NCBI RefSeq assembly: GCF_000003815.2
Contig: NC_049981.1
Location: 8,528,232-8,592,231 of the forward strand
DNA: 64,000 bases
From: Branchiostoma floridae
Taxonomy: Eukaryota; Chordata; Leptocardii; Amphioxiformes; Branchiostomatidae
Reading direction: 5' to 3'
Shown here: piece by piece, positions 12,988 to 64,000 of the stretch
Layout of the letters: each line of letters begins with the position of its first letter
Position numbering within the stretch: position 1 is the first letter of the stretch
Translations under genes and position numbers: made by a program
Notes under the pieces: generated by a model
The model's database searches: none
The model's input: the letters and a program-made list of their open reading frames with translations, nothing else
What the model was told of the DNA's origin: nothing

Positions 12988-13211
12988 TCATGCCTGACTT
13001 TCAGGCATGGTGACTGTGCCGCTGGTAGCGTCGTAGAGAGCGTTGTCGAAGCCAGTGTTCAGGGTCGCCGGAGACTTCTCACCGAAGGACAATAGTGTCT
13101 TTGTGCCCTGCCGTTTAAAGTAGCACCATCCGCCCACCAAGGCCAGGATACAGACCATCGCAATCGCTAAGAGAATGGCGATGACGGACCCAGCATCCAA
13201 ACCACCCGATT
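12988..13211 (-). CDS. Last coding exon: transmembrane helix and endocytic cytoplasmic tail (exon 60)
   Basis: About 73 codons and a TGA stop. After SGGLDAG comes a hydrophobic stretch of about 22 residues ([20 protein letters not shown]), then WCYFKRQ as a basic stop-transfer border, then a 45-residue tail. The tail contains FDNALYD, closely matching the FENTLY internalisation motif of mannose receptor tails (family knowledge), and a TLLSF dileucine-like segment. This points to a single-pass endocytic receptor with its lectin array outside the cell. No clear AATAAA is visible close to the stop on the minus strand; only a weak variant (TATAAA) lies at about 12931-12936, so the end of the 3' UTR is unknown. 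Confidence 0.92.
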
Positions 13212-16200
13212 CTGTGAAGATTGTCAACTATCAAAAACCCTCCTACAAAACATATTCACAGGGCATGCATTGTGACTTTGTAATAGAACCTTTACCGTCC
13301 CCTTATTCCTGCACCAATGATTTCTCTGCAATTAGCACAGAAGACTTTAGGCCACTACGTTCTTCAGCGCAGAGCTGAATCCGCGTCGTTGGAACTCCTC
13401 TAGATTCACCTCTGATTAATCACCCTGTCCCTTGCACTATTGACTAATGAGTTACCCTTTCCTTCGTACAAGCCAATCAGTGTGCAGCGCCTAGTGACTT
13501 CGCATGCCCAATACGGAGTGCATGCAGGATGACGACTTGCTTCAGCAAGATGATGGTTTCTAAGTGTTTTCGCACTATACCTACACATCCTATGAATATC
13601 GTATTTGTTACGTAATAAACAACATTGGACATAGAAAGGACCGTTGAAAAGTATAGTGTGTTAGGTATAGTTGATATGTGTAATGTGTCCGTTGAGTATA
13701 TACAAAATTTCTCACTGCAAACTAGCATGTTTACTTACTGTTGCCGGTTTGGCCGGAGACCTGTCCGGGTCCCGGGGAGATGACCACCGGGTTATTCGGG
13801 TTGTAGGGAGGACGGGTACCAGCCACTGTTATCAGGTGATAATGATGCCTATTAGTAGCTAATATTATGACTTCAAGCCTAGAAAAGTAGTCACGTTCGG
13901 AAAATCATTACTCCTTCAAAAAACGCGATCTTTTAAAAAAGATTTATGGGAACACAGATTCTTGCTTGCTTACTTACAGATTCCAATGATCTGTTTTCGT
14001 AATCAAATTATTTCAAGATTCCCTTCCTCCTCCCTTCTTCCATTTGTTAAACAAAGAAAAAATATCTCAATGATATAAGCAACTTTTAACGTGATAACAC
14101 AGTTGAGAATCACAGGCAATAAATTGAACATAGAAGCAGTTGCAATGTAGCCCCTGACCAAAGGCTTTGACCATGTTGTCCTAAGCAAATTGAAAATAAA
14201 GTTCACTTTATCTTGAACGCTCTCAATACGATAGACTTGATACCAAAGCAGGTTTGACCATACTAGATTGCTCAAGTGTAATAATGAAATATTGCTTTCT
14301 CATTAGAAAATAAATTCACAGGTCTCGGCCCACCTGATCGTTTCGAGATGTTAGAGATGCATGTACGTTAGCCATTATTGCTTGGTAAGTTGAACTTCAA
14401 TATTCATCATGTATTTCTATTTCCTAGTTTGTAGTGATTATGCGAAGTCCAATGTACTTTTTGTCGCTCTCACTAAATACTGAAATCTACCGATAACAAC
14501 CTAAACAACTTTCACTTATTACCGAAAACAACTTGAAATTTACCGTGAACAACTCGAATATGGGGCATCTATCTGCGGTAATACACCTTTAAGGTTTGTC
14601 CTTTTAAACCGACTTGTAGTGGTAGTGGAAAATGTATTTGAGCAGGAAATATAACAGACGTTTTACAATTGTTTGCTAGAAAAATATTTCAGTACACATT
14701 GGATAAACAGGCACCAAAGTTTGCCAGCTGTTAACAAACCTATGCTCCAAGCAGAGGTTTCATCGGAGGATAGCAGTGACCGCGATTTTATTGTGTCCAC
14801 TACTACAACAACCCCACCGTTACCTCTGCTTGGAGAATAAACAAGCAAATGGGTTACACAATAAATGCCAAGAAGTGAAGTAATCCATTTTGGGGTTTGA
14901 GAGTTGACCAAGCAGTCGCCGTTTATAGCAGGGTCCGCGAATCTGGATTCTAACGTTAATATATTCCAACAGGCAAAAGTTTGATCCTATTTCTACCAAT
15001 ATTAGGTATTCATAATTATTCCTAACACGGGGGTCTGTATTGTATTCAATAAATATGGCCTAGCCTACAATGTAACGCCAAAATCACGATTAATAAATAT
15101 AACCCATTGAAATGATTCAAAGTGGTAGATAAAAGTAAAAAAGAAATATTAAAGTAGAGAAAGTGTCTCTGTTTCTCAAACCTGTTATCATTTATATATA
15201 TAGTTTTCCGTCGCTTTTGTGTGTTTTCGACTGTTTTCGACTGTTTATGGATGTCTCCAGTTGTTTTCGGCTGTTTCTTTAGCTTTCAAGCTGTTTTCGG
15301 TAGTTTTCAAGCTGTTTTCGGTATTAAGTGGTAGTTGTTTTCGGTCGTTTGTGTTTTTTTGCGTTGATTTCGGTATTTCGTAAGACCCCTTTTTTGTTGT
15401 GCCAATAAAGTTTAACCTGACTGTTATCCTCCGCAGTAACCGCCAGCTCAATCTTTTCACTTGCTACCAAACGAAACGTTTGAGCCAGCAGTTACTATGA
15501 AGGATGGCTAAATAAAGACAACTTCTGTAATAACTTACGTTTGGGCATGCTGCAGATGTACCCCTTCCTAACCTGACAGCCCGCCAGCTCCCACAGGCCG
15601 GAACTTAACATCTGCGTGCAGCCATCGTCACCATCCGGCTCGCCCTCTCTAAAGGCGGAGAAATCGACTGGAGTCGAATCCAGCCACGCCACCGTTCCTA
15701 TAGCAGGAATCAATAGTTATATGGTTAATCTCATAATGATAGTGGTCTATTGAGTTTTGATACTTTTGTACTTTTGTACTAATGGCTGATCACGACTCAA
15801 GGTCCACTATCACTACACTCGCGTCACGCTTGCGTCGCTTCGGGCTTCGTTCACTGTGTCACTGTTGTGTTATTTTCGCCGATTTTCTGTTGCACTCACA
15901 CTGACGTGCGTCGCTGTTGCCTTTCTAGACTAAATTAACAGGTTATCGGAAGTCGCAGCGTTGTCAATTTATTAAAAATCACCGTAAAATGATAAAAATG
16001 AGATTTATAATGAAATTATTTCCCTTGTGATGATGCATAATATGTTACATATGTTATATGATAACCTTGAAAGACTTTTACAGTGAAAGAAGTGACCGAA
16101 TGAATTAACACGAACCATATACCAGATTTGATTCGATCGCTTACGTGTTTTGCACCAAGTATGCGTAATGGTGTATTTTTATAGGTTTATTGAACAATTT

Positions 16201-19200
16201 TCAAATTTCACAAATGAAAAAGTATTTTCAATGTCGGCGGATGGCTTGCCAAACTAATAATGTCTAATTCTATCATACTTGTAAGAAGGCAGGAAAAACA
16301 TGCCTGCAAGTTTAGTGTTCTGTCTGCGGCTTGTATCGCAAGCTCAAAAGCAAACGTTATCATCCAAGATAGATATAATTTATTTTTCAACGTTTTACGA
16401 CATTTTGTTTCTCCACATTTGCAGGTTTATGAATCGATAAACCAGTTACTTATTTGGTGTTTACAAGTATAGACTTTTGGCCTATTTCCCATTAAATAAA
16501 ACAACAGATATTTTAACTTAGTCTGAATCCGGATACAAGTTAAGTTTTAGCTGGATGATAAATCCTTGAAAATCCTTCTTTGTCCTCGGAAATTTTTGCC
16601 CAATCTGACCAAAAAGTACCTTTCGACTATACACAGTTTTGAACTTCGTAGAGCAATTACAAAGATAAGAATCTGTAGTCACAAACTAAATGTAGAAGCC
16701 GGAAGATATACTAAAATTCCCCGTGACCAGAGGTTTTGTCCATTCTTCTCAAATGACTCCGAAGACGAACGTCACTTTGTTTTGGATTGTTCGCGATATA
16801 ATGATAAACGCACAAAGCTACTTCCGCTTGCTCTAAACAAATTGCTACAATGGATAAATTCAACTACATTCTGGGAGGCGATAACCCTTACTTTGTACAA
16901 GAAGGCAAATATATCCACGAATAGTGTAAACGACATGCTAGACCTAGTATGTTGATTTACTCATTCCTGTAGAAACCCATATATGTCTATTTAGTTGTAC
17001 TGTAAGTAGTTGTTATAGACCTTACGAAAGTCGCTGTACTTTTGTCGTGTCAATAAAGATTTCCTTTCATACATCGAGCATTTCTTGTAGAATGAGCAGA
17101 ACAAGCCCCGCTTTCTTTGATTGGTTATAAACTAGACTCAAGTGACTTTCTGGTGGAGGAGAATTTTTAAGATTGAAACATAGGTTAGTACTTTTTAGGC
17201 TTTCATTCAGTGTATTTTGACATGTTTCCTACGGGCATCCCTAACACCGATGTCTACCTTAATCTCCACAACTGTACTTACCATCAGATCTTAGGTACAT
17301 GCCTATCCACACCCCCCAGCCGTGGTGTTGCTTGAAGACATCGATAACGTGTTGACTGTGGATGCTGGTCAATACAGATTTCTTGTTCGTGCACTCTATG
17401 TAGCAATGGCATAAGATTATAACGTTAGTTTACGTGTATACGTGCTGTACAAAGTAAAAGGTTACAAATGTACCCATGGTTCAATAAAATGGAGTGAAAC
17501 CGATGCCATAAAAATTTGTAAGTTGTTAAAGTTCCCTTGGCCAATTTGGAGCCTGATGATAAGTTCCCCTTTGTTTCCCAGTCCCAACCAGTAAGTCCCA
17601 ACCATATTTCATCAGGTTTTAATCACAGTTTGTTTTGTCGAGTTATGCTGTTGACATACAGACAAACCTAAAGCATAATATTCTTGGCGAAGTTGTACGC
17701 AGCATATAGTATATATGCTCGAATACATACCTGCTTGGGCCTCTACAAATGACCTCCTGTTCGTAGCAATTGTGCCGGTCTCTATGAAGAAGCATGCGTC
17801 TCCGACCTCAAACCATCCATCCAGACAGTAGCCGGGGGAAGGGGGAAGTGTTGGCGGAGGTGTGTCTGCAGAATAAAGGTGGTCTGTGACTTGTTGTATG
17901 TTGTATAAAAACAGATTTGTATCTTTAGATATCAGAACTCCCGTAATGAAATAAATAGGCAAATATATCAAGGACTGCTTTGTTATTAGAAAGAGTACCG
18001 AAACTAATGATTGGCCTACTCTATTGCAATACTATATCAAAGAATTGTGTTAGCCCTTATGGTTATGTTAAGTTAACTTTAAAGTGCCAAACCCGGATAT
18101 ATCCGGCACACATATACATGCCCTGTGTGCCGCACCCGGATATATCCGGGATAGCGTACTCTCCCGAAGTAGCAGTTTTGCGCGCGCGTAGCGCACGAAC
18201 CCGGAAGTTAGGGACTTCGGCCTTGTTCGGGGGTTTCTTTTTGGAAGTCAGCAGCCAACCCTGGCACTTATAGTATTTTATAGGGCTGAAACTCTGACAG
18301 TTTAAGGGTTAACTAGGTTGTTAAAGCTTTATCCTATACCTTTATTTTGTATTTTGTGTAATAGCTGTTGCCATACATTGTATCATGTACAATTGTCATG
18401 CAATAAAGTTCTTCATGTAAAGGTTGTTGAGCTTAGTTACCCAGCCAGGGAAGTCCTCTCAGATAAGATGTTAAGTACAGGTCCATATTTGAGGAGAGTC
18501 TCACCCTCACCGCACGCACGTGAAGTTACGTCACATAACGAGAAGAGTAGGTCCTTACCGGCGTCACTTAATCATACCTCGCAGTCCGGCATCCGATTTG
18601 GCATATTGAAAATGTCATAGCCATCACTTATACGTCGATGTAGGTTTGACATCCTGATAATCAGATACGCCCAAAAAGCAGTTACTCAAGCAACTTGATA
18701 TGTTTTGGGAAATGGTCATACGTTTCAAACACTATCCAATGCCTTTCGTCAGTGACACTGGAGAGATCTGTTAAATAGCAGTTATTATATCCTAGCTATG
18801 AGATCTAGCAAAAGAGATCTAGTTGGAGAACAGGTTTATCCTAAATATGAATTAATATGCAAAAAGGGAGGAAGACAAGTTTTAGTAGTCCAAGGAAACA
18901 GGGGAAAGACAAGACTATGTTGATGCAAATGAGATAATAAGCTCCTGTTGTTTAAATTACAGGAGCTAACGTTAGCTTACAATTTGTCATGAGAAGATAT
19001 TGTCTTTTATCAAGAGGTTGATGATAAATGACAAGATTCTTTGCAGTAATTTTACTCAAGTTTTTTAATTCAAACAGCGATTCAGTGACCATATTGCACC
19101 TTCCTCGGGGCAATTCTTATTAGTTTGCAATGCAGCATAGGTGTCGCTGCTTACAGATGCTTACATATATACACAAATGGTTATGTGGTGTTTACAATGC

Positions 19201-22200: not shown

Positions 22201-22435
22201 CACCTGGGCACATTGTAAATGGTTGCCATCATCATTATAGACGGGAACAGTACCTTTGTATTTCTGGCAGATGAAGCCCAGTTCCCTGCTGCATTCTGCG
22301 TCGTTCCATTTCCCTGCCAAGGCACTCTCCCAATGGAGCATCACACAGTTTTCATCCTGTGATGATAAATTAACATCGTTATCTCAGTGTTATTACCTTC
22401 GCCAATAAGGTTATGTCTTCATCAGTGTTCGTGTG

Positions 22436-22517
<82 letters not shown>

Positions 22518-31500: not shown

Positions 31501-34182
31501 TTTGCGGCAGTAAATCTAATTTTGCTATTGAATGAGAAATTTATTCTGTCATCGCAATCAGACAAAAGATGAGGCATGGCCTTTTTCGTCAGCAAGAGGT
31601 GCAACGCGCAAGGCTTAGCTTTTTTATTAGCCAAGCACATCGAGATACTTCTACCCAGTGTGCTGGGTCTTATCAGAGGATTGGCTCATGGGGCTTACGC
31701 CTGAAGCTCCATCATGCACGGGGCCACCGGCTTTACGTCATCATCCGAAATAACGAATACAATACCTTATAACATGTCCGAGCTGGGGCCGATCCACGAA
31801 ATGTGATCTAGATAGCCAATCAGCGTTGTTGCGCTTGCACCGCCGGTACAAATCAAAATCATAGTTAAGCTGGAAATCTAAATAAACCATAAGTTTTAAA
31901 CACATTAACTCACTTGGCCAATCAGAAACCGACTCTCTTGCATGTCGTTGATAGAAACAAGGTCTCCACCGTTTGATTGACAGTAGGCACGTGATTCTTG
32001 CCAAGACAGAAGATTGGAGTCACTGATATAGTAGCAGTGGCCGCTGTAAAGTTTCCAGTCAGTTGTTCCGGAACAGAGTGGCGCTATAAATACAAGATAC
32101 AACTCATACTCATCATATGTCACGAGTCACATGTGCTATCTACAGAACCTGACTCGGTGTGCAGTGGATCATAAGTTGCATGAAGTCTATGGTGCATACC
32201 ATCTCTGTTAAGGTGACAGGGAAGCAATGGATTGTTCAGTCCTTGACAATGACTGGAGTTAATCAGTAGATAATCAATAGAAATCCATAAAAAAGTCCAT
32301 ATTTTGTGTTTGCCGATCAAATAAAGCAAATATGTTTTTTTCGCAAGGCGTGGCGTTAGGACTAATATAGTCAATATTTAATCTAATTACCTGGAGAGTA
32401 TCTAGAGCTGGAAGTATGGGTTTTATGGTACATCGGGTGGTCTGTATTTGCTGTAAACGTTTATGTTCATTGAATCCTGCCATTCTTGCTATAAGTAATT
32501 TAAAGTAGAGAATCTTTTCGAAGATGTCGTAATCATGTCAAGATTTTTCGTACGTATTATTGAGCGATAAAAGTACGCAAGGCAAGCTACCTACCGTTTT
32601 CTGGGACGGATGGAGGTGTCGTGGGGATGACGACTGAGTCACCTGGTGGGAGCACATGACGTTAGGAAAGTAGGAACGACACAGGTACGAGGCAGATTAG
32701 ACAGATGTTAATCTAGATATATCAAACCTAGTTGGAGGAATGATTGGTGATGAGAAAAGGAAAATAGATTTTCTAAATCATAAAGTTATCATCTAGCTAT
32801 CATCTTTTAACCTCAAACATCAATACTGGATCTGGATCCCAGGCGTAAATCGTAAATCATTGAATCTTATTTGAGAGAAAAAAATCCCTTCTGCGACTTT
32901 GTAAACGTCTCCCAAATTTAGCAGTTATTTTCACAATAGAGAGAAAATCATAGAGAAAAGTCTGTATCGAGACTGACTGGGGCCCATTTGCACACCAGCA
33001 ATATGTGAAGTTTTCAAAACACGAAATTGTCTGGTTGTCCTCTTAAAGAATTGTTTTTCAGAAAAGTAAGGTAAAAAATAAAGTCAGTACCGTAGGAAAT
33101 AACGTTTAATATTGTTAGTGCAAAACGTGGTCTTTCTGATCTTTCTGCATAGATCATGATAATGAGCAGGGATCATTCACACGTCAAGCATGTAAAATAT
33201 TCCTCTTACATTGATGACGTAATGTAACGCTATGTACAATGATCACCGAAATGTAAACAGTAATTATTACTGACCAAAACATGATGAGGTCCGTTTGGAC
33301 CCTGCTCATTTTAGATATCAGTAATACATTCACATGTACACGTAGTTCAACTCCCGTGTATGTACAGTTTGCCATGCATTGACATTCTTTTTTAGTCGCA
33401 AAAATGATGGGGTGTTGGAGGTTTGGAAAGAAGAATGATATAGTTATGACTAGGTCTTGTCTGCTTACCCAAGCACCTTCACCTACGATAATAAAATAAT
33501 AAGCCTACAAGACGGGAGACCGGCGAGCGCGCGGGATTCGAATACTTAACTGTTCGTTTTTACAAAACGCAGTTCTGTAATATAATATAATTTCTTGTGG
33601 CTACATGGCAACTAGCGCGTACCTCTGGAAACCATGCAGATCCAGTTTCTGTAGGAGGTACAGGACAGGTCGTTCCAAAAGCTATCCGATCCGGCCACCA
33701 CGATTTCCACACAGTGCTCGTTGTCGCCAGCGTTGTTAGGTTCGCCGTCATTCCACTCTGTGTACCCCACCGCTCTCCCATCGGACCATTTAAAACCTTT
33801 CAACAAGAACAAGGTTGAGAGTGATATCATGGAATGCAATGGATTTATAAACTTTCCTCATGAACTGTAATGTGCAAATTAGCTATTGACTGCTATTTTC
33901 ATACCAACATAACAAAACCCTGACGATCCGACAACACCTTCTTGAGTTATTCTCGTCCAAAGTTTGAAACACTGCAGTACAAAATAATTACTATGGTCAA
34001 AACCCAGAGCACTTACGCTCCTTTCTAAGAGCTGTGTACCACTTTACCAATTCTACCGCATGCCCATAGCACGAGATATGAAAACTGCAAGCCGCTACCT
34101 TCTTTTTTCAAGCCCCCATATACACACCTACCAAATCATCCATCCATGGCTTCTCGAGTTATACTGTTCACAGTAAGACATG

Positions 34183-58200: not shown

Positions 58201-58482
58201 CCTACTTGAGAGCAGCGGTTTTCCGCCTGTTGCCAGGTCAACTCTTGTGTTCTGAACAGGTAGCAGTAGTTTTCCCAGATGACCCAGCCGTCATCACAGT
58301 ACGTTGTCGCTGATAAAACAGTTTTTATTCTTAGTAACTGATAGATTAAAAATATTGTTGGCGAATTAGTAGGGAAAACTGCATTCAAAAACACACACTC
58401 ACAAAGAGAGAGAGCGAGAGAGAGAGCGAGAGAGAGAGAGAGAGCGAGAGAGAGAGAGAAAGAGAGAGAGAGAGTAGGAGAA

Positions 58483-58527: not shown

Positions 58528-61500
58528 AAGAGAGAGAGAGAGCAGGAGAAAGGAAAGAAAAGGTACAACAAATATCAGGGCAAATTTCCTCAGTGACACT
58601 GAAGAAAGGTAGTGATATCTACCTCAAACGGCTCACCATTTCCAAAATGCAAATTTCCTCAGTGACACTGAAGAAAGGTAGTGATATCTACCTCAAACGG
58701 CTCACCATTTCCAAAATCATATCCAGTTGCCTAAGTAATTGTTATTTGGCGTATCTTATTACCTGGATGTCTAACCTTCATCGACGCGTTAACAGTAATT
58801 CTACCTGGTTTTGTGTCACATCCCAGCAGCTCCAGTCGCATAGCGGCGCCTGCTGGGGCCCAGTCTACCGGGTACACCCTGGTGAAGCGGGTCACGTGGG
58901 GTTCCTGTAGAATGTTCCTCACGCGCGTGTCCTCGTCGTTGTTGGCGGGGAAAATCTGCGCCAAATATATCGTAATTAAGTCACACAACTACGTAGAGAT
59001 CATTAACATTTTGGTTGAATGAAGCGAGCCGCGGTCATGCTGGTATCTTTTATTTGCATTTCAATGTATAAACTACAATCATCGACATAGTGAAGCATGA
59101 GAGAAAGACTTATTTATTTATCAGATTGATAGTTGCAGAGTAGGTACGTATAGATCTAACAAAATGTTGGGCAAAGTTGGATGCAGATTTACAGCAACTT
59201 TATCGATCTGATATGATATCAGAATAACCGTTATCACTTTGATATTGTATTTAGGACCGTCATGTTAAGTGTTGGACCGCAGAAAGAAAAGATAACAAAA
59301 CGTGAAGCTAATTGAGGATCAAAATATGGCCACACTGACTTAATTTCGATGACATCCGCGTGAATATTGAATTTTATGCTTGCCAGAGGACCTGCTGTCC
59401 AGGGTAAGGGCACATGGTCAGAGCATGGAGCCACAGTGCCCCTTTTCCCCTCTTTAAACAAGAATGACAATATAAACATGATTGAAATGGCGTTGATTGG
59501 ACATAGGACAAATCAAGCCTGGGAAAGAATGGACTTGATGCTTAGTCCCGTGGTTTAGCAGAAATGCCCCCCCCCCCCTCACGCAGTAGTTTTGGGTCCC
59601 CAGAGGATGTCATCCATGGAATTAAGTCAGTGTGGCCAAAAGTCTAAGTCAAAGAATATGGACTCCATCGGTCGTTTCGCATAACGATGTGCAGACGTGT
59701 TTTGTATATGTCTTCATCTTTGTTCTGCGCATGAGCTAAATGTCGAAATGAAGTATATATTACCCCGTTCCTATGGTTGATGTCAGTGTAATTGACCCAT
59801 TCATTGGTCGGGCTGTCCCTGAAGGCTAATTTGTAGCTCACCACCCACTTGTTTGTTCTGGCACCCTGCGTCTCAATGCCTGATATCTGAAAATAAAATC
59901 ATAGAGCTGAAACTTCGATTGTGGCGTTCCGCTGAGCAGAATTGTTAAGAAGAATGTACTACATACTACGGAAGAGCTGAAGGTGTAAGTCTCAGGCGCG
60001 AACCTTGCATGTAGAAGAACACAGCTTCCTCGGTGGTAAGTGTAGAGGTGAAAGATGTCATTGAATACCAAACCATACCGTTGCAATACGCTGACTGAAG
60101 TTTGGGTATGTCTCAGAAAAATCTCGACAAACATTTTTTTCCCCAGGTGAATTTTGCAGAAATCAAGGACTTCCATACAATACAAATTTGTAAAAATGAT
60201 AGTGCTCCCTTCTGGCATGTAAATCGCCGACCTACCGCATGTAACAAAATATTTCAGAATAGAAGAAATGTGCATGAACTTGCATGATATCTATAACCAA
60301 CACGGTTGCTCTATTTGAGGTACTTTGCACATTTATCCCAGCAATTAACGAAAATGAAGCAAGCACAACTTGGGATACTTGGCAACAGTCGGGATACTTT
60401 TCGCATTTTGAAATCTTTTAAACGGTTTGTACTTTATTCGAGAAAATACAGTACTTACTTTGGACGTGACATACTTTACCGCAATCTGAGGTTACCCAAT
60501 TTTTTTCAAAACATCAAAGTGAAAAATTAAGCTCACGCGAAAGCCGGGTAGGCCTAGGTCTACTTCTATCCAAGGAGCAGAGTCTGTGCTGGTTGGACAC
60601 CAGGCGGCGCCGACGATACTTGCGTCGTAAATGCCCAGTCGACCGTATTTGGCAGCGTGCTGAGGATCAAGTTCCGTCGATGCTGATATCTGCCCGTCCG
60701 GTATGAACCTGTCTTCCATACCGAGCGGTGTGTAGCAGTCTGGAAATAGATATAACGGTTTGAAAAAATAATAAGTTTCAACTTTAACTTTTTGAATAAA
60801 GCTATACATGTAGTTAACTCAGAAAAGTTTTAAGTTGTTCAAACAATTACAATGTAACTTAAGTGAATAAGTGAACAATAAGTGAAATTGCCCATATATT
60901 TTGGATACATTGTAAAAGTAACTGTGTAGATATTTCTTTATTTATTTAGAACATTAAGAACTTTATTTCAAGCATCAGTTTGTTTTTCCATCGTTAGGTT
61001 ATGTTCTAATAATCTACATCATTTTTCATAAACCGAGGTGCTCAGACAGACATAATTTCCTGTACTTTGCAGGGATGTGTGGATTCCCATTTCCCCAGCA
61101 CACTGACCCAGTTTCAAAATGTTGTGTCATCTTAGAACGTGTTAGAACAAATGCTAAATCTATGTTGAAACAATTTAAACACTATACAAATGATGTAATC
61201 GATATTATAAATTTTCTTACATGTTTGAATACAGTAGCAAACATCTAGAAAATCAAAGGGGTAGAATTGTTCAAAACATATACTTACTCTGTTTGATTGT
61301 TGAAAAATTTTGGATTCTTACAAAATGTTCACATTAGGTTGTGTGGAATGGACGATAGCCTGGAGAAAACTGTTTTTACATCCACGTGTGATCAGCATTA
61401 GGCTTTCATTACTTCCCACCACTTCTATTGTTGTGGCTGTCTAAATGTACTTCGCTAACATCACAAACTTACCTCCAGACAATAAAGACGTTCCTGCAAA

Positions 61501-64000
61501 AACAAAGACAAAAAATTGATAGATAAAGTCAAATTGAACCACTTGTAAAAGACTTCTAAAAGATATCTTACTTTGTCAATCAATCAAAGAAACTTATTAG
61601 CATTTGGCAGATGTCAGTATCTGAAGTATCGCTAATTTACAATGTCTAAAAACTTTCTCATTGTATTAAAAACACGAATCAGAAAATCCAGAAGGAAGCG
61701 CAATTACTATGCATATGCCTATTACGCTGAAGGGCGGTTATACCGGCTATATAGATACAAATACAGATATGTTATGAATACACGAACGAATGCGAAGTAT
61801 GCAATGAGACTTCTTCAAACCTTCAGGAATTTGACAAACGTATCCGTGTATGTTCCAACAGTCCACAGCCTCCCATTGGCCGGTGGGTGACCCTGTAAAA
61901 CAAATTTGTTCAAAGGAAGATTTTTTCACTTGGAATATTCAATATCCAAATATCCAATATTTGGAACTCAAGGGACACAAAATTGACATGTAAGGGACAG
62001 AACATAGCAAATGAAAAATGATTGATCGAAATTACCAGTATAGACTCGAGCACAGTCCTCTCTGTTGACGGTGTTTGGCCCAGGATTGTTTGGGAACCAG
62101 TTTTGAAAGGTGTTCGTGTAGCGAACTCCATCTTCCCAATGCCACACTCCGTCGTCACCCGTGTCTAAATTTAATTAAAGGACAATACATTCATAACCAG
62201 AAGGATAGTAACAACAAAAATATGCGTATTACCTTTAATATTTATACTTATCCCTTAGACCATTCAAGAAATGGTGATCCTTTAAAACAACTGGCTGAAA
62301 AAATTTACATTTTTCGCATTTTACTTTTTTTGAAATGACTGAAATTTCTTCCAATCGGTAAACCATTTAAGCCGCCGGTGCGATTTTAAGATAAGCATCG
62401 TTAACGGGTGATAGAAATTGATAGTGCAACGTTACTAGAAAATAAATCTTTGCACTTCAGTTTTCTCTCACCTAGGTGCTACGGCGGTTTCTTCACAGTA
62501 TTGGTGGTAAATATGCAGAAATGCCGTACAGCCTACGTTCCTTTGATCCCTTTACGGTTGTGGAAGAATACTTTTTGTACAAACTTAGGCCATGTCAATT
62601 TGATTAAATGGATAGCATCAATTTCCGTCCTTTTCCCAGATAATGTTTTCGTTCATACTGCAAATCAGATAATATGTACTGTATGTTCCAAACTTTTATA
62701 AGAAAATGTTGATTGATACTAATAACGTAAAATGTCAAATCAAATTCTAAGGTCTAAGAAGATGGTGTGAAAAGAAAAAAATGAGTGATCTATTTTTTGT
62801 TACACCATATCCTACGTTAAGGCATCCGCACGACCGCATCAGTTTAGGGTTCCCAGATGTTATCTAATAATTATATAAACGAATCACCATGCACTTATGC
62901 AGAGAATGTTGTGAAGAACTACCAACACACATACCAGATAGGCCTATCCAAAGGTCTGTCACTCCAGCTGCTTGTAACGACGGGAACATGGAATTGATGA
63001 AATTTTGCTGATCTTGGCTAAAGGGAAAATGAAAAAAAATCAATATAGTTAGAATGTAGTAGTTGGATAAGATGAACATGCTAATTACCATCAATGTATT
63101 GATGGTGCAAATACCGTCACCATTCAAGAATCTAATGTTAATAGATAAACAAGTAGAAGTAACATGTTGCATAACATTCCTGATAAACACGAATGCTTTG
63201 ATTAAAGTCATAGGACATCAAATACAGATCAGTGTCAACAATAAGAGCATCATTCAATACACATAGACATTTGCACCAATACAACTCTCTAATATTATCT
63301 AAAATCGTGTTTCCGATTCTCATTTGCTACCGCCAGGTAATTAAGCGTTGTTTATTACCTCGATGACGTCACAGTGAACACGTTAGTCTGTTCAGAACCA
63401 GGCACCGTGACTCGTTAAAGTACTTTTGGAAAGCAAAGAGTGCAATACATCATGATTTCGTACATCTTACAAGACATTGCAATATGCGACATTTGCTTCA
63501 CGGGATTATTCAAAGGCGGTGCCAGTCTCTGAATCGGCTGCCATCTTGATTGTGACGTCATTGGATGAATAATCAACGTTTAATTCAATTACCTAATGGC
63601 AGTAATCAAGAGTTAGAAGTAAATCGTGTGATCATATATGGTTTAATTTTGAAAACCGAAGGCTGTTTGTTTAGTACAAAAGTCTATATCCATAAAAGTA
63701 CTATTGTCATTGCAAATAATACGAAAAGTATGTACGTAGTGTGGGAAAATCATTAGATACATTGATTGCCTGTGACATTATTTTGCAAAGGCATGTGTAA
63801 CTATTAACCGAAACCCAGTGTTCTGCACACGTTGTTCTGTTTACGAAAAGATATTGATTAGCTCGTGAGTACTTATGAATGGTGGCCAGTCTGGCTCCGT
63901 GTAGCTCGCAGTCATCTCTGGCCTCTATCCAAGGTCCCACGTTTGTCACACTGAACTGGTAGCACTTGTTTTGGAAGTTGCGCCAACCAGCCGGGCAAGA
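12988..64000 (-). CDS. Giant mosaic C-type lectin membrane receptor, 60 exons in window, 5' end outside
   Basis: Predicted type I membrane receptor with 14 C-type lectin-like domains (CTLDs), two F5/8-type C (discoidin) domains, one SUEL/rhamnose-binding lectin domain and one LCCL domain. A single transmembrane helix and a short cytoplasmic tail follow. I read the exons on the minus strand from canonical splice borders and checked that each exon length and phase joins the next. The chain is open for 2,633 codons and ends in TGA at 12988-12990. The reading frame enters the window at 64000 in phase 0, so the signal peptide and possibly more domains lie upstream. The array of CTLDs, single membrane pass and FxNxLY-like tail resemble the mannose receptor (MRC) family, but that family has a ricin-type domain, a fibronectin type II domain and eight to ten CTLDs. 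Here discoidin, SUEL and LCCL modules are present instead, so it is not a simple orthologue. Likely role (inference): binding and uptake of glycans in immunity or gut. Exon borders could differ by a few bases where alternatives exist. Confidence 0.9.
13739..13825 (-). CDS. Pro/Gly-rich stalk exon (exon 59)
   Basis: An 87-base exon bordered by CCTGATAACAG and GTAAGT. It encodes a juxtamembrane stalk rich in Pro, Gly and Asn (for example [10 protein letters not shown] and [10 protein letters not shown]). Entry and exit phases match exons 58 and 60. The junction with exon 60 creates an Asn-Lys-Ser N-glycosylation sequon just outside the membrane. Confidence 0.85.
13826..15538. other. Intron 58 with GTTTTCGG repeats
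   Basis: At about 15200-15350 there is a degenerate array of CTGTTTTCGG / AGTTTTCAAG words, and the inverse word ACCGAAAACAAC occurs near 14520. No exon was found: a candidate minus ORF near 14750-14900 has no useful splice frame. The intron at 13212-13738 shows nothing of note. Confidence 0.6.
15539..17865 (-). CDS. CTLD14, divergent membrane-proximal domain (exons 56-58)
   Basis: Exons 17731-17865, 17282-17395 and 15539-15697, about residues 2395-2530. Motifs: linker [83 protein letters not shown] and GYICSMP. EPN is EPD and WND is WEL, so the classical sugar site is probably lost. It may serve as a structural or protein-binding domain next to the membrane (inference). It corresponds to CTLD10 in the other cassette. 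Confidence 0.88.
16560..17075 (+). mobile_element. LINE 3' end: C-terminal RT tail plus 3' UTR
   Basis: A 129-residue ORF (16566-16955) resembles the C-terminal tail of non-LTR retrotransposon polymerases. It contains [20 protein letters not shown], then [20 protein letters not shown] and a final hydrophobic stretch. A short 3' UTR with AATAAA at 17052-17057 follows. It is 5' truncated and lies in intron 57, opposite to the lectin gene. A related tail occurs near 49150-49220. Confidence 0.7.
18058..18312. mobile_element. MITE-like element with paired CCCGGATATATCCGG palindromes
   Basis: The ends read GTTAACTTTAAAGTGCC and TTTAAGGGTTAAC, partly inverse to each other. Inside are two perfect palindromes CCGGATATATCCGG. 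It is short, non-coding and located in intron 55, so a miniature inverted-repeat element is the simplest reading. Confidence 0.5.
18315..18420 (+). mobile_element. LINE 3' UTR remnant (copy 1)
   Basis: Contains GTTGCCATACATTGTATC, then TGTCATGCAATAAAG. The same tail appears at 21280-21395 with GTTGCCATACATTGCACC and GAGCAATAAATAC. Both end shortly after a polyadenylation signal. Confidence 0.6.
18650..18790 (+). repeat. Dispersed short repeat (CAGTTACTCAAGCAACTTGAT family)
   Basis: Shares with 26068-26160 and, inverted, 58590-58745 the order GCAGTTACTCAAGCA, then a GGAAA-GGTCA block, then a CAGTGACACTG end. This copy lies in intron 55. Confidence 0.65.
19479..21094 (-). CDS. CTLD13, EPS type, cassette B (exons 52-55)
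   Basis: Exons 21012-21094 (83), 20810-20843 (34), 20433-20548 (116) and 19479-19650 (172), about residues 2260-2394. Motifs: linker [78 protein letters not shown] and LPAVCK. The WND position reads WTD. The first three exons (233 bases) equal the single 236-base exon of CTLD9, and the last exon is 172 bases in both. The 34-base exon 53 is supported by its phase and by the continuous domain it restores. Confidence 0.87.
20020..20240. repeat. Short tandem repeat, about 43-base unit
   Basis: Several copies of GGGCCAAGACTATGTCATT followed by ATATATGTCAGCAAAAGT, with one unit interrupted by unrelated sequence. Intron 54. Confidence 0.65.
21280..21395 (+). mobile_element. LINE 3' UTR remnant (copy 2)
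   Basis: Same 3' tail as 18315-18420, with AATAAA near 21382. It sits in intron 51 next to a second LINE piece in the opposite orientation (21874-22167). Confidence 0.6.
21874..22167 (-). mobile_element. LINE reverse transcriptase C-terminal fragment
   Basis: A 97-residue ORF with [14 protein letters not shown], then [19 protein letters not shown] and LKARKAV. This matches the thumb/connection region of LINE polymerases (typical pattern: K-x-K-V-M-I-F-N then Y-x-Y-L-G). No catalytic part is present. It is a truncated insertion in intron 51. Confidence 0.7.
22254..23540 (-). CDS. CTLD12, QPN type, cassette B (exons 49 in part, 50, 51)
   Basis: Second part of exon 23277-23540, then 22905-23059 and 22254-22356 (103), about residues 2118-2259. 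Motifs: [69 protein letters not shown] and GFICQ. It is the duplicate of CTLD8, but the triplet changed from EPN to QPN, which may shift sugar preference. The linker [12 protein letters not shown] precedes it inside exon 49. Confidence 0.91.
22439..22515. repeat. (GT)n microsatellite
   Basis: An uninterrupted run of about 38 GT units, 80 bases upstream in gene sense of exon 51 (high end 22356). Confidence 0.97.
23277..25264 (-). CDS. CTLD11, EPN type, cassette B (exons 47-49 in part)
   Basis: Exons 25044-25264, 24194-24362 (169) and the first part of 23277-23540, about residues 1956-2103. Motifs: [74 protein letters not shown] and GFICKRP. Strongly similar to CTLD7 (WIGLREY and WSDGSAY in both). 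EPN and WND are complete. The exon 47 donor lies only about 45 bases from a hairpin-forming repeat at 24883-24999. Confidence 0.92.
24883..24999. repeat. Foldback hairpin element
   Basis: Two inverse arms of about 50 bases, from CAAAGGTATACACGGAGC to GCCTTCTTCAG and back through CTGAAGAAGGCGACGCAG to CCGTGTATACCTTTG. They are separated by about 15 bases. A strong stem-loop is expected. It lies in intron 47, about 45 bases from the exon 47 donor. Confidence 0.8.
25502..26790 (-). CDS. CTLD10, EPN type, cassette A (exons 44-46)
   Basis: Exons 26678-26790, 26227-26371 and 25502-25666, about residues 1815-1955 with its leading linker [11 protein letters not shown]. Motifs: [66 protein letters not shown] and GYVCKR. 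EPN and WND are intact. The acceptor of exon 45 was set so that the frame reads TRKTWYEAE. Its partner CTLD14 keeps the WIGM signature but not the Ca2+ site. Confidence 0.9.
26068..26160 (+). repeat. Dispersed short repeat, second copy
   Basis: Reads GCAGTTACTCAAGCAGCTGA, then GATTTTGGAAACGGTCAAA and GTTTCAGG. Same family as 18650-18790 and 58590-58745. Intron 45. Confidence 0.65.
26973..28525 (-). CDS. CTLD9, EPS type, cassette A (exons 42-43)
   Basis: Exons 28290-28525 (236) and 26973-27144 (172), about residues 1679-1814. Motifs: linker [86 protein letters not shown] and LPALCE. The triplet is EPS and WND is WDD. Some lectins with EPS still bind sugars, so activity is possible but not assured. 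Exon 42 is unbroken; its CTLD13 partner is cut into three exons. Confidence 0.92.
27480..27835 (+). mobile_element. LINE 3' end remnant
   Basis: A frameshifted tail with [12 protein letters not shown]-like residues matches the 'R-T-I-x-x-W-N' end of LINE polymerases. The nucleotide signature GAAGGGCGGTTATACCCGC then GTAGACGCAGATACAGAT follows. Related tails occur at 45680-45930 and about 61720-61780. Intron 42. Confidence 0.6.
28557..29158. mobile_element. TIR element containing a 243-base tandem duplication
   Basis: Perfect 13-base terminal inverted repeats ACCTCCATGAAAT (28557-28569) and ATTTCATGGAGGT (29146-29158). Between them lie two copies of a block starting near GATTACTCAAGAA (28621 and 28864) and running through GATTTTGGGCGCCGTATCTG. 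No coding capacity. Intron 41. A related end (ATTTCATGGAGGTATGA) occurs at about 40786-40801. Confidence 0.7.
29486..30915 (-). CDS. CTLD8, EPN type, cassette A (exons 39 in part, 40, 41)
   Basis: Second part of exon 30655-30915, then 30036-30187 and 29486-29588 (103), about residues 1540-1678. Motifs: [70 protein letters not shown] and LFICQ. EPN and WND are intact. Its counterpart CTLD12 has exons of matching length (155 and 103) but a QPN triplet. Confidence 0.92.
30655..32083 (-). CDS. CTLD7, EPN type, cassette A (exons 37-39)
   Basis: Exons 31914-32083, 31295-31463 (169) and the first part of 30655-30915, about residues 1394-1525. Motifs: [67 protein letters not shown] and GFICERP. EPN and WND are intact. 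Exon 39 is shared with CTLD8 and contains the linker [13 protein letters not shown]. Exons 38 and 39 have near-identical partners in CTLD11/12 (169 bases, and 261 versus 264), showing tandem duplication. Confidence 0.92.
32595..32642 (-). CDS. 48-base Pro/Thr linker exon (exon 36)
   Basis: Encodes [17 protein letters not shown] between CTLD6 and CTLD7, bordered by CTCCCACCAG and GTAGGT. Symmetric phase 1-1 and a multiple of three. Confidence 0.75.
32643..33622. other. Intron 35, no recognisable feature
   Basis: About 980 bases without exon-like ORFs, domains or clear repeats. The neighbouring introns 29589-30035, 31464-31913 and 32084-32594 are similarly plain. Confidence 0.5.
33623..36936 (-). 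CDS. CTLD6, EPN type (exons 32 in part, 33-35)
   Basis: Second half of exon 36734-36936, then 34874-35001, 34390-34442 (53 bases) and 33623-33796, about residues 1241-1377. Motifs: [67 protein letters not shown] and NWICMV. EPN and WND are present. For exon 34 the acceptor ending at 34443-34444 is required; a nearby AG a few bases further in would shift the frame. The exon 32-33 intron is about 1.7 kb. Confidence 0.88.
34182..34256. repeat. (CA)n microsatellite
   Basis: About 37 uninterrupted CA units in intron 34, close to exon 34. A second, interrupted CA tract lies at about 36592-36664 next to exon 32. Confidence 0.96.
35002..36733. other. Intron 32 with a perfect 13-bp hairpin
   Basis: The only structured piece is GCATTTTGCCACT / AGTGGCAAAATGC at 35965-35993 with a three-base loop. 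A short TA run lies near 35680. No gene was seen. Confidence 0.55.
36734..38192 (-). CDS. CTLD5, degenerate sugar site (exons 30-32 in part)
   Basis: Exons 38077-38192, 37637-37794 and the first half of 36734-36936, about residues 1101-1240. The domain shows [42 protein letters not shown], then LQPS in place of EPN, LWDDNRC and YPYIC-like FPYICE. With QPS and WDD the Ca2+ site is altered, and sugar binding is uncertain. Exon 32 also carries the linker SGYTPPPG and the opening of CTLD6. Confidence 0.88.
38510..38544 (+). repeat. (CAAA)n tract, probable LINE tail
   Basis: TTTATAAATAAACAAACAAAC and further CAAA units follow a pyrimidine-rich stretch. This is a common form of LINE 3' end with a tetranucleotide tail. 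Confidence 0.6.
38604..40548 (-). CDS. CTLD4, EPN type, plus linker (exons 27-29)
   Basis: Exons 40366-40548, 39283-39440 and 38604-38717, about residues 949-1100. Motifs: [61 protein letters not shown] and [11 protein letters not shown] and WND are complete, so it is a good candidate for mannose-type sugar binding. The last exon also encodes the Pro-rich spacer ([12 protein letters not shown]) and the first Cys of CTLD5, so domain and exon borders no longer coincide from here on. Confidence 0.92.
38880..39180 (+). mobile_element. L1/Tx1-like LINE fragment
   Basis: Reads [20 protein letters not shown], then [14 protein letters not shown]. After a stop comes sequence resembling [20 protein letters not shown]. 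This is the segment after the catalytic core in L1-like polymerases. It lies in intron 28 in the opposite sense to the lectin gene. Confidence 0.6.
39441..40365. other. Intron 27, no recognisable feature
   Basis: Several short ORFs but nothing with lectin-like or transposon motifs, and no usable splice frame. Confidence 0.5.
40870..43673 (-). CDS. LCCL domain split over four small exons (23-26)
   Basis: Exons 43610-43673 (64), 43183-43249 (67), 42455-42588 (134) and 40870-40910 (41), about residues 847-948. The joined product reads [50 protein letters not shown] and [11 protein letters not shown]. This follows the LCCL pattern (CPxxC, Y-T-D, SxxCxAAIHxG, NG-x-x-S) known from Limulus factor C, cochlin, CRISPLD and DCBLD proteins. 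LCCL domains bind bacterial lipids such as lipid A in some family members. It directly follows an F5/8C domain, a pairing also seen in DCBLD receptors but in the opposite order. The donor at 43608-43609 was chosen because only it gives a Thr-Val-His-Cys junction. Confidence 0.87.
41340..42400. repeat. Degenerate tandem repeat around AGAGTCCATTCTTGCATGGA
   Basis: At least six diverged copies of an AAGAGTCCATT-type core (near 41506, 41621, 42144, 42252, 42320 and 42373), with GGGGTGCACTGG or TTTACATGGGG between some of them. A hAT-like element splits the array. It fills intron 25. Confidence 0.55.
41686..42135. mobile_element. hAT-like MITE with 8-bp target site duplication
   Basis: The element at 41694-42127 has terminal inverted repeats TAGTGGTGCGTACCTAAA and TTTAGGTACGCACCACTA. 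It is flanked on both sides by the identical 8-mer CATATGGG (41686-41693 and 42128-42135). TAGNG ends and an 8-bp duplication are the hAT signature. The 434-base interior has repeated TCCGGACTT words and no ORF for a transposase, so it is non-autonomous. Confidence 0.88.
43910..44419 (-). mobile_element. tRNA-derived SINE-like element
   Basis: The minus strand begins GGGACCGCGTGGCACGATCG with an A-box-like stretch. It then has GGTTCAAATCC (B box, about 44350-44360), then TTGGGAAAGGCACTTTACA. The order head, boxes, body fits a SINE transcribed from the minus strand. The body probably extends to about 43910, but its left limit is uncertain. Intron 22. Confidence 0.6.
45300..45960 (+). mobile_element. 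Decayed LINE fragment: RT core piece and 3' tail
   Basis: Around 45440-45600 the plus strand encodes a reverse transcriptase piece, [17 protein letters not shown] followed by [13 protein letters not shown] across a stop. From 45690 a tail like that at 27480-27835 follows. It is broken by stops and lies in intron 22. Confidence 0.62.
46088..48395 (-). CDS. F5/8 type C domain 2 (exons 19-22)
   Basis: Exons 48311-48395 (85), 47511-47616 (106), 46587-46709 (123) and 46088-46238 (151), about residues 692-846. It starts [11 protein letters not shown] and carries [41 protein letters not shown] and [10 protein letters not shown]. The last two exons have the same lengths as those of domain 1 (123 and 151). 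The first 203-base exon of domain 1 corresponds to two exons here, so an intron was gained or lost. The donor at 47509-47510 (GTATCA) is weaker than the others but is required by the frame. Confidence 0.88.
46729..46788. repeat. 16-base tandem repeat, about four units
   Basis: Unit TAAACATTGTTATTGA repeated head to tail, 20 bases upstream in gene sense of exon 21 (high end 46709), within its acceptor region. Confidence 0.9.
47669..48058. mobile_element. TIR element with internal poly-C (copy 1)
   Basis: The left end AGCCACACTGACTTGATTTT then GGATGACAT is inverse to the right end GGATGTCAT...AAAATTAGGCGAGCGTGGCC. The interior contains TTAGTCCCGTGGTTTAACAG and a run of C. The same layout recurs at 59331-59641. 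Intron 19. Confidence 0.7.
48830..49474 (-). CDS. SUEL / rhamnose-binding lectin domain (exons 17-18)
   Basis: Exons 49308-49474 and 48830-48950, about residues 596-691. It has the family pattern: an early LHICER segment, a central cysteine-rich stretch (VCSNN, VVDCLSS), the motif [28 protein letters not shown] and YRC at the end. In known rhamnose-binding lectins the YGR-type and DPC segments frame the sugar pocket; here NYGR and FGDPC are both present, so binding of rhamnose- or galactose-like sugars is plausible. The length of about 95 residues is normal. Outer borders are phase 1. Confidence 0.92.
49605..49643 (-). CDS. 39-base Pro/Thr linker exon (exon 16)
   Basis: Encodes [13 protein letters not shown] between CTLD3 and the SUEL domain, with splice borders TTTCTACAG and GTGAGT. 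Symmetric phase 1-1 and a multiple of three. Pro/Thr composition suggests an extended, possibly O-glycosylated spacer (inference). Confidence 0.78.
50202..51083 (-). CDS. CTLD3, EPN type (exons 13-15)
   Basis: Exons 50910-51083, 50458-50577 and 50202-50318, about residues 446-582. Visible motifs: [62 protein letters not shown] and GYICKMR. EPN plus WND predicts a Ca2+-dependent mannose/fucose/GlcNAc-type site (family knowledge). An extra Cys-containing loop near the start resembles the long-form CTLD hairpin. The domain is phase 1 at both ends. Confidence 0.92.
51157..52760 (-). mobile_element. RTE-like non-LTR retrotransposon, reverse transcriptase ORF, 5' truncated
   Basis: An open frame of 521 residues (51157-52722) and slightly longer upstream. 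Motifs in order: NNKSPGMDG (about residues 33-41), [18 protein letters not shown] (130-137), [10 protein letters not shown] (162-171), RQGCMLSP (222-229), the catalytic FADD (262-265), [19 protein letters not shown] and a C-terminal [14 protein letters not shown] and [10 protein letters not shown] segment. The tail is like RTE/BovB-type or related LINE polymerases; the clade is tentative. No endonuclease precedes it, so it is a dead-on-arrival copy. The absence of stops suggests a recent insertion. It lies in intron 12 in the same sense as the host gene. Confidence 0.9.
53067..53102 (-). CDS. 36-base Pro-rich linker exon (exon 12)
   Basis: Flanked by TTTCTTTTCAG and GTAAGA, this exon encodes [13 protein letters not shown] between CTLD2 and CTLD3. 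It is phase 1 on both sides and a multiple of three. It lies between two introns heavily loaded with transposons: a large inverted repeat on one side and an RTE-like reverse transcriptase on the other. Confidence 0.75.
53305..53440 (-). mobile_element. LINE 3' tail with (ATT)n end
   Basis: On the minus strand, TTTGCAATAAAGGTTATCA runs into an ATT repeat (plus-strand ATAATAATAATAATG). Just upstream on the plus strand (about 53176-53300) is TAGGGCTGTGTACCGGTAAG with a second TGTACCGGTA. This looks like one end of another DNA element whose partner end I could not find. Confidence 0.5.
53508..55276. repeat. Large inverted repeat, about 730-base arms
   Basis: The left arm (about 53508-54242) and right arm (about 54552-55276) are inverse copies over nearly their whole length, with small indels. 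Examples are AATAGAGTTAATTCCAGTTG at the left edge and CAACTGGAATTAACTCTATT at the right. Both arms translate to the same [17 protein letters not shown]-type peptide or its near copy, on opposite strands. The spacer holds another hairpin (CCTGAGTGTCATCCTAG and CTAGGATGACACTCAGG). No transposase is visible. It is either a foldback element or an inverted duplication in intron 11. Confidence 0.87.
55400..56283 (+). mobile_element. LINE 3' end with C-terminal RT tail and (GAAA)n
   Basis: An ORF at 55413-55802 resembles the last part of many LINE polymerases, with [30 protein letters not shown] and [14 protein letters not shown] 3' UTR follows, with a possible stem (GGGGGAGGCCC / GCCCACCCCCC) and the end GAATAAAGAAAGAAAGAAAG. 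Opposite in sense to the lectin gene, intron 11. Confidence 0.75.
56409..58309 (-). CDS. CTLD2 with QPD galactose-type motif (exons 9-11)
   Basis: Exons 58151-58309, 57223-57308 and 56409-56553, about residues 304-433. It shows [37 protein letters not shown], then [15 protein letters not shown] and RWND. The QPD triplet is the one associated with galactose/GalNAc-binding CTLDs, and the WND Ca2+ ligands are intact. This is the only QPD domain in the array. Phase is 1 at both outer borders. The intron between its first two exons holds GTTTTCGG and GGAATTCC repeats. The intron upstream holds an AG-rich microsatellite. Confidence 0.9.
57440..58035. repeat. GGAATTCC-rich and GTTTTCGG-rich repeats
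   Basis: Between 57454 and 57720 the word GGAATTCC or a close variant recurs at least five times, including the palindrome GGAATTCCCATGAAAAG followed by AATGGGAATTCC. From 57785 to 58035, GAAAACAACCAAAAG and the inverse GTTTTCGGTTG words recur, related to the array at 15200-15350. Intron 9. Confidence 0.6.
58403..58550. repeat. (AG)n-rich microsatellite
   Basis: AGAGAG repeats with GCGAG and GGAG interruptions in intron 8. They create false Leu/Ser-rich ORFs on the minus strand that run into exon 9. Confidence 0.95.
58590..58745 (-). repeat. Dispersed short repeat, third copy with tandem duplication
   Basis: CAGTGACACTGAAGAAAGGT and ATCTACCTCAAACGGCTCAC occur twice in a row, then ATCATATCCAGTTGCCTAAG. 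This is the inverse of the family at 18650-18790 and 26068-26160. It ends 60 bases from exon 8. Confidence 0.7.
58805..60739 (-). CDS. F5/8 type C (discoidin) domain 1 (exons 6-8)
   Basis: Exons 60537-60739 (203 bases), 59764-59886 (123) and 58805-58955 (151), about residues 145-303. Family hallmarks are visible: a starting Cys in [11 protein letters not shown], the segment [10 protein letters not shown], then [29 protein letters not shown] and a closing RLELLGC with the partner Cys. Length (about 155 residues) is typical. Such domains bind phospholipids, glycans or collagen through surface loops; which applies here cannot be told. Phase is 1 at both outer borders. The third exon ends GCDTKP and the next begins CTLD2 directly, with no linker exon. 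Confidence 0.9.
59331..59641. mobile_element. TIR element with internal poly-C (copy 2)
   Basis: Ends GGCCACACTGACTTAATTTC and GAATTAAGTCAGTGTGGCC are inverted repeats. The next inner pair is GATGACATCC / GGATGTCATC. The interior has TTAGTCCCGTGGTTTAGCAG and a C run, as in 47669-48058. Intron 7. Confidence 0.75.
59887..61472. other. Introns 5-6, no recognisable feature
   Basis: Apart from exon 6 (60537-60739) this stretch shows only AT-rich sequence and short ORFs without recognisable domains. Confidence 0.5.
61473..61493 (-). CDS. 21-base linker microexon (exon 5)
   Basis: A tiny exon flanked by TTTTTGCAG and GTAAGT. It encodes GTSLLSG between CTLD1 and the first F5/8C domain. It is phase 1 on both sides and a multiple of three, so skipping it would keep the frame. 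The phase fits both neighbours exactly, which supports the call despite its size. Confidence 0.72.
61821..64000 (-). CDS. CTLD1 (exons 1-4), 5' side cut by window edge
   Basis: Exons 63873-64000, 62935-63017, 62036-62164 and 61821-61892, about residues 1-137 of the visible protein. It starts with CPAGW and has a CYQF strand, [12 protein letters not shown] and WIGLSD, and ends with HGYVCQIP, all hallmarks of the fold. The usual EPN triplet is replaced by FPN within NWFPNNPG, and the WND motif reads WEA. Two of the main Ca2+/sugar ligands are therefore missing, and classical sugar binding is unlikely. The first donor was set at 63871-63872 (exon ends CATAA). A later GT at 63843-63844 would break the frame of the next exon. 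The exon continues beyond position 64000 or begins just there. Confidence 0.87.
62165..62934. other. Intron 2, no recognisable feature
   Basis: AT-rich sequence. A 97-residue plus ORF (62408-62701) has no recognisable motif and looks accidental. Confidence 0.45.
63328..63602. mobile_element. MITE with about 48-base imperfect TIRs
   Basis: The left end GCCAGGTAATTAAGCGTTG ... GATGACGTCAC is matched in inverse by GTGACGTCATTGGATGAAT ... AATTCAATTACCTAATGGC at the right. It is about 275 bases, non-coding, in intron 1. Confidence 0.72.

Follow-up and report, generated by a model that had tools for sequence, protein, structure and literature searches.

What kind of gene occupies this stretch of the Branchiostoma floridae genome, and which known receptors is its product related to? 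The window, meaning the whole stretch analysed, is 64,000 nucleotides long (contig C3, 8528232-8592231), and a preliminary description of it had joined sixty exons between 12988 and 64000 into a single protein. For the present analysis, 60 kb beyond 64000 were added, with coordinates above 64000 continuing the window numbering, and genome-wide searches covered 513,431,437 bases in 431 contigs. The receptor gene lies on the minus strand, at 8,541,219-8,610,380 of contig C3, and runs past 64000, with its 5' part located 0.3 to 18 kb beyond the window edge. As CTLD1, CTLD2 and a signal-peptide exon were found there, the extent of 12988-64000 had been drawn too short. The in-frame chain itself was recovered and its exon number changed: 58 exons touch the window and are joined in frame to a stop codon at 12988, and the curated model has 65 exons in all, with 8724 coding bases, 2907 amino acids and one stop at the very end. 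All 64 introns of this model are GT-AG, and the longest reach 6.9 kb.

The exons of the curated list were chosen by domain homology and phase, and the model was built from sequence alone. Its least certain parts are exon 1, picked from several signal-peptide candidates by hydrophobicity, donor strength and phase; exon 28 at the start of the LCCL domain, picked among three candidates by phase and cysteine and not reached by the Pfam match; exon 8 at its 3' end; and exon 64, which encodes the stalk. An exon scanner combining splice weights with a codon table, both trained on hand-picked fragments, gave 63 exons at an exon cost of -11 and 60 at -13, in each case in one frame with the stop at 12988. 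Lowering the cost to -9 raised the number to 73 exons and put the end at 8008 (848.6) first, 2.4 points ahead of that at 12988 (846.2). The claim that the in-frame exons form one protein ending at 12988 is borne out by the common stop at costs of -11 and -13 and by the agreement of the Pfam domains. In control runs at a cost of -13, the minus strand scored 590.4, the reversed sequence 41.7 and three shuffles 0.1, 0.3 and -2.3; this control is partly circular, because the codon table fragments were hand-picked on the minus strand, and Pfam provides the independent test. A gene on the plus strand was rejected, with a scanner score of -0.3 in the same control and no domain frames seen by eye among frames of at least 45 amino acids. 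Two other settings over-predicted short exons and were abandoned: splice weights retrained on the complete chain, which gave 190 to 417 exons, and a low exon cost on the longer stretch, which gave 128 to 206. Raw scanner chains contained reverse transcriptase pieces, which were taken out of the curated model along with exons 57700-57593, 44226-44174 and 44131-43971, all without domain support.

Searching the predicted protein with domain profiles, a check that the preliminary description had proposed, recovered all four domain kinds above Pfam cut-offs: 16 Lectin_C stretches, two F5_F8_type_C domains, one SUEL_Lectin and one LCCL. The Lectin_C stretches were scored in six pieces of 3, 2, 3, 3, 3 and 2 (3.7e-58, 1.9e-49, 1.7e-68, 4.1e-68, 8.4e-65 and 1.2e-33, respectively), and lesser overlapping matches in the same scan included UL45, which is itself a CTLD-like family. 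Read from the amino terminus, the order is signal peptide, CTLD1-3, F5/8C, CTLD4-5, SUEL, F5/8C, LCCL, CTLD6-16, stalk, membrane helix and a 42-residue tail (Table 1). With the sole membrane helix seen in the protein at its C-terminal end, these matches uphold the reading of one membrane receptor carrying four kinds of ligand-binding module (CTLD, F5/8C, SUEL and LCCL).

Table 1. Features of the receptor gene (window numbering, continued beyond 64000) and positions of its two paralogues (contig C3), with Pfam values for single domains
Feature	Position	Strand	Remarks
Signal-peptide candidate, exon 1	82149-82080	-	beyond 64000; less certain
CTLD1	75222-66851	-	beyond 64000; signal peptide spliced straight to CTLD1 in the model
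CTLD2	65196-64313	-	beyond 64000
CTLD3, exons 8-11	61821..64000	-	Lectin_C; exon 8 starts 2 bases outside the window
F5/8C domain 1, exons 12-14	58805..60739	-	F5_F8_type_C 1.8e-16
CTLD4, exons 15-17	56409..58309	-	Lectin_C; QPD and WND
CTLD5, exons 18-20	50202..51083	-	Lectin_C; EPN, WND; predicted equivalent of mannose receptor CTLD1
Short proline-rich linker, exon 21	49605..49643	-	gene model only
SUEL lectin domain, exons 22-23	48830..49474	-	SUEL_Lectin 3e-21
F5/8C domain 2, exons 24-27	46088..48395	-	F5_F8_type_C 1e-23; factor VIII/neuropilin-like in PDB
LCCL domain, exons 28-31	40870..43673	-	LCCL 1e-21, profile positions 16-96; exon 28 less certain
CTLD6, exons 32-34	38604..40548	-	Lectin_C; EPN, WND; predicted equivalent of mannose receptor CTLD2
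CTLD7, end of exon 34 to exon 37	36734..38618	-	Lectin_C; predicted equivalent of mannose receptor CTLD3
CTLD8, exons 37-40	33623..36787	-	Lectin_C; EPN, WND
Linker exon 41 and CTLD9-12 (exons 42-51), first four-CTLD block	25502..32642	-	Lectin_C
CTLD13-16, exons 52-63, predicted duplicate of CTLD9-12	15539..25264	-	Lectin_C; absent from paralogues B and C
Proline-rich stalk, exon 64	13739..13825	-	gene model only; less certain
Membrane helix, 42-residue tail (FDNALY, FxNxxY type) and stop, exon 65	12988..13211	-	exon starts in phase 1
Paralogue B	8,797,347-8,870,873	+	CTLD1-3, F5/8C, CTLD4-5, SUEL, LCCL, CTLD6-12, membrane helix, tail
Paralogue C	27,256,606-27,217,136	-	receptor order, both F5/8C, extra CTLD between CTLD10 and CTLD11

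Six cysteines are present in 16 of the 16 CTLDs. The motif pair EPN and WND occurs in eight of them (CTLD1, 5, 6, 8, 9, 10, 12 and 13), CTLD14 has QPN with WND, and the six CTLDs other than these and CTLD4 have no such pair. Nine or ten CTLDs are thus predicted, from these motifs, to form calcium-dependent sugar sites.

The closest relatives of the predicted protein were sought in the PDB. With the whole receptor as query, the top matches were FcRY (4.1e-149), DEC-205 (2e-120), PLA2R (5.1e-111) and MRC1 (8e-77), all of the mannose receptor (MR) family, and the alignments paired CTLD6 onwards of the receptor with CTLD2 onwards of the MR-family chains. When CTLD5 was searched alone, its best match was CTLD1 in 11 of the 11 MR-family chains among the matches listed, with bit scores against MR CTLD1 and CTLD2 of 88.8 and 61.7 in FcRY, 78.9 and 44.2 in DEC-205, 60.9 and 54.7 in PLA2R, and 86.3 and 81.7 in MRC1; the MR lead over the best non-MR chain was just 5.7 bits. 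CTLD6-7 aligned with CTLD2-3 of MRC1 in one continuous alignment of 191.7 bits, and CTLD6 alone matched an MRC2 fragment first (100.9 bits), aggrecan (84.8) being near FcRY CTLD2 (85.8) and ahead of PLA2R CTLD2 (72.1). Further towards the membrane, the best register of CTLD13-16 was on CTLD5-8 of FcRY, PLA2R and DEC-205, and CTLD9-12 as a block gave no clear register on MR chains. Taken singly, CTLD16 was nearest to CTLD8 in FcRY and PLA2R and to CTLD1 in DEC-205, CTLD15 to CTLD7 in FcRY and DEC-205 and to CTLD2 in PLA2R, and CTLD14 to CTLD6 in PLA2R, with near ties elsewhere; searched alone, CTLD14 and CTLD15 scored higher with CD23 and aggrecan than with any single MR CTLD.

A best-hit test was run with 22 vertebrate CTLDs taken from the PDB alignments against the CTLDs of the receptor, those of paralogue B and 11 control CTLDs of the genome. 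This test and the trees below were made without MRC2 CTLDs, and vertebrate CTLDs beyond the printed alignment ends, including CTLD8 of every chain, lie outside both. MR CTLD1, 2 and 3 found CTLD5, 6 and 7 of the receptor in 12 of 12 cases (one a tie) and the same three positions of paralogue B in 12 of 12, and none of the 11 controls came first for any vertebrate query. MR CTLD6 found CTLD10 or CTLD14 of the receptor in all three cases and CTLD10 of paralogue B in none of three. The remaining positions were less regular: MR CTLD4 found CTLD6 of the receptor rather than CTLD8 (3/3), MR CTLD5 was ambiguous, and MR CTLD7 was split between CTLD15 (DEC-205) and CTLD6 (FcRY, partial).

Maximum-likelihood analysis of 58 CTLDs, leaving out CTLD3 of paralogue B (end not found), the partial PLA2R CTLD6 and FcRY CTLD7 and all paralogue C CTLDs, grouped CTLD5 of the receptor and paralogue B with four MR CTLD1 (98/96), CTLD6 with four MR CTLD2 (95/93), and CTLD10 and CTLD14 with CTLD6 of FcRY and DEC-205 (97/92, with a long-branch warning on both vertebrate rows). 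The 11 controls formed a separate group (100/99), and MR CTLD3 was not grouped with CTLD7. In a second tree, made with the same omissions, six human non-MR lectin CTLDs were added and four of the 11 controls kept. The three groups stayed (88/96, 97/87 and 95/91, in the same order), CTLD7 now joined MR CTLD3 (90/78), and no outgroup CTLD fell inside the four position-specific groups. On this evidence, CTLD5, 6 and 7 are read as the position equivalents of MR CTLD1, 2 and 3, and CTLD10/14 as that of MR CTLD6. For MR CTLD4, 5, 7 and 8, registers and trees disagree or give no grouping; the block CTLD9-12, with its internal duplicate CTLD13-16, probably corresponds to MR CTLD5-8. Outside the presumed array, CTLD1, 3 and 4 had their top scores with ordinary lectins (ASGR1, COLEC12, aggrecan) and CTLD2 with MRC1 CTLD1. 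An invertebrate gene with CTLDs assigned individually to MR-family positions is not known to us, and none was found in the open-licence PMC full texts searched.

The duplicate nature of CTLD13-16 is indicated by several comparisons. The pairs 9-13, 10-14, 11-15 and 12-16 are mutual best partners at 48, 54, 45 and 35% identity, and the first three outscore all 116 other pairs (maximum 284), which pair 12-16 (226) does not. Exon lengths run parallel for six exons (169/169, 261/264, 152/155, 103/103, 236/233 and 172/172), with the 236/233 pair split by two extra introns, and differ for the remainder (170/221, 113/135, 145/114 and 165/159). Paralogue B has just one such four-CTLD block. CTLD13-16 are accordingly best described, at the level of sequence and exon layout, as a duplicate of CTLD9-12. 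Exons 46 and 47 are separated by an intron that contains, at 28601-29068, two copies of a 243-bp tandem unit, 94% alike.

The same chromosome carries the two paralogous loci, at distances of about 0.19 and 18.6 Mb from the receptor gene; both have nearly the same domain order, their exons being partly unjoined at present. Pfam confirmed one F5/8C, SUEL and LCCL in both. Each CTLD of paralogue B is closest to its receptor namesake (12/12, 37-55% identity), and in the other direction CTLD3 of the receptor is closest to CTLD3 of paralogue B. A second F5/8C was not found in paralogue B, where relaxed settings gave two weak chance pieces only. An FxNxxY motif is present in three of three tails: FDNALY in the receptor, the same within GFDNALY in paralogue C, and FGNLVY in paralogue B, the last a weak match (E 0.035) that agrees in splice phase on manual reading. 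Genome lists of at least 46 LCCL and at least 105 SUEL matches were compared by eye; among the matches listed, only these three loci have a SUEL with an LCCL after it on the same strand at a distance of up to 20 kb. The sole other LCCL/SUEL pair within 20 kb among the matches listed, at C2:16173536-16159068 (-), has the reversed order, LCCL then SUEL. At the locus of paralogue B, the exons for CTLD11 and CTLD12 flank a pentraxin-like open stretch (C3:8862688-8863004 (+); Pentaxin 3.1e-17), and at C3:8807080-8807724 (+) the last CTLD1 exon is preceded by two partial copies. In paralogue C, the first F5/8C exon occurs twice in a row (C3:27250806-27250403 (-)), possibly as alternative exons.

Passages of PMC7948739 and PMC4635314 define the MR family by CysR, FNII, 8 or 10 CTLDs and coated-pit tail motifs. 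No FN2 was found near the three loci among the 47 fn2 matches listed genome-wide, nor by regular expression, and no Ricin_B (CysR) was found on C3 among the nine matches listed, with a Pfam model that may miss a divergent CysR. Since the CysR-FN2 head was not found, the predicted receptor stands outside the MR family by definition, while the array appears common to both. It resembles MRC1/CD206, MRC2/Endo180, PLA2R1, LY75/DEC-205 and avian FcRY in its type I arrangement, with a contiguous CTLD array and one membrane helix, and in position-specific homology at MR CTLD1, 2, 3 and 6. Like MMR, PLA2R and DEC-205, it has a short tail with FxNxxY, an endocytosis motif described in passages of PMC9033714 and PMC8551360. 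Unlike the family, it has CTLD1-3, F5/8C and CTLD4 in front in place of a detected CysR and FN2, and its equivalents of MR CTLD1 and CTLD2 are separated by SUEL, F5/8C and LCCL. Its contiguous CTLDs number 11 (CTLD6-16, with the duplicated block), compared with 8 or 10 in the MR family, and CTLD5 is set apart.

The other modules have relatives of their own. The single SUEL domain is related in the PDB to CSL3 and an L-rhamnose-binding lectin, small secreted proteins, whereas here it is one module of a membrane protein. Factor V/VIII, neuropilins and retinoschisin share the F5/8C domain and provide its PDB relatives; the receptor has two copies, joined with CTLDs and without CUB, MAM or A domains in Pfam. 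Cochlin and Limulus factor C are LCCL proteins, and the receptor shares this domain with them but has no protease or vWFA domain in Pfam. In open-licence PMC full texts, no published receptor had the same domain order, as the preliminary description had supposed, and no MR relative of such architecture was found in lancelets or other invertebrates.

Taken together, these results make it likely that the gene encodes a type I receptor sharing its CTLD-array ancestry with the vertebrate MR family, with another head, a SUEL-F5/8C-LCCL insert and a role in endocytic uptake. The product is probably an endocytic scavenger receptor. Such a receptor would bind particles that carry glycans and lipids: the CTLDs and SUEL would capture glycans multivalently through many weak sites, F5/8C and LCCL would capture lipids or further glycans, and the FxNxxY tail would draw the molecule into clathrin-coated pits, to be internalised and recycled in the manner of the mannose receptor. 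We infer its expression, ligands, calcium dependence and endocytosis from the predicted protein. The earlier suggestion of a possible undescribed pattern-recognition receptor survives in part: the order had no counterpart in the open-licence PMC full texts, and the homology of the array with the MR family together with the FxNxxY tail points to endocytic uptake as the most likely role and away from a sensor of a kind not yet described.

Alternatively, exon shuffling within the large lancelet CTLD pool might have built a multi-lectin receptor peculiar to this lineage, with no special tie to the MR family and resembling it through convergent CTLD stacking. This reading would suit a genome as rich in CTLDs as this one (1565 first-look candidates, of which 150 were scored; 300 CTLD-containing protein genes reported in B. 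floridae in a passage of PMC10140915). It would also suit the absence of the CysR-FN2 head and the higher scores of late CTLDs against non-MR lectins, CTLD10, 11, 12, 14, 15 and 16 being nearer in raw score to non-MR lectins than to any single MR CTLD. Against it stand the consecutive CTLD5, 6 and 7, which in each of two paralogues follow the order of MR CTLD1, 2 and 3 and fall in groups free of outgroup and control CTLDs, and a tail motif common to the MR family; we regard it as unlikely. F5/8C-, LCCL- and SUEL-type modules serve adhesion elsewhere, and these roles, along with the closeness of F5/8C domain 2 to factor VIII and neuropilin domains, would fit a matrix or adhesion receptor fixed by these three modules to matrix or neighbouring cells, with the CTLD array as a spacer. 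That explanation sits poorly with the homology to endocytic receptors and with FxNxxY, the one tail motif examined, in every tail, and is decidedly improbable.

A wrong joining of two or more genes, in which a secreted or short lectin would form the 5' part and an MR-like protein the 3' part, is conceivable for models built from sequence across introns of such length, one of them carrying a reverse transcriptase. The single open frame across all exons with uniformly GT-AG introns and the one membrane helix at the end speak against it, and the nearly identical order at two further loci argues against separate genes having been joined by error, so that we consider it very improbable indeed. The reverse transcriptase, a 535-aa open frame at 52764-51160 (-) in intron 17 (RVT_1 3e-34), is probably a LINE and is outside the receptor protein. 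Beyond the window, upstream of the receptor gene on the same strand, 97477-86687 (-) contains exon-like fragments of a gene for a receptor tyrosine kinase, which match PF07714 at 6.9e-33 when joined by hand.

Returning to the shared array, a wider reading can be put forward tentatively, as a joint proposal that we hold to be somewhat doubtful. The MR CTLD array may be older than the CysR-FN2 head, descending from an ancestral chordate membrane array with FxNxxY. Vertebrates would have placed this array behind CysR-FN2, and lancelets behind a CTLD-F5/8C head, with SUEL-F5/8C-LCCL following the first array CTLD. The lancelet product might then be one endocytic receptor that captures microbial lipid as well as glycans of the mannose, galactose and rhamnose types, its gene having multiplied to three or more on a single chromosome. 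The question bears on the origin of the MR immune-receptor family. If the kinship of the lancelet array with the MR family is real, that family gains an invertebrate-chordate counterpart, its head and array become separable modules, and where the collagen-binding FN2 head came from becomes a testable question; a single uptake route would be served by nine or ten predicted sugar sites together with binding modules of three further kinds.

Elsewhere in the genome, the same searches showed a dense cluster of single-exon CTLDs at C10:21.6-22.9 Mb and dense clusters of LCCL exons at C10:13.56-13.58 Mb and C7:16.83-16.87 Mb.
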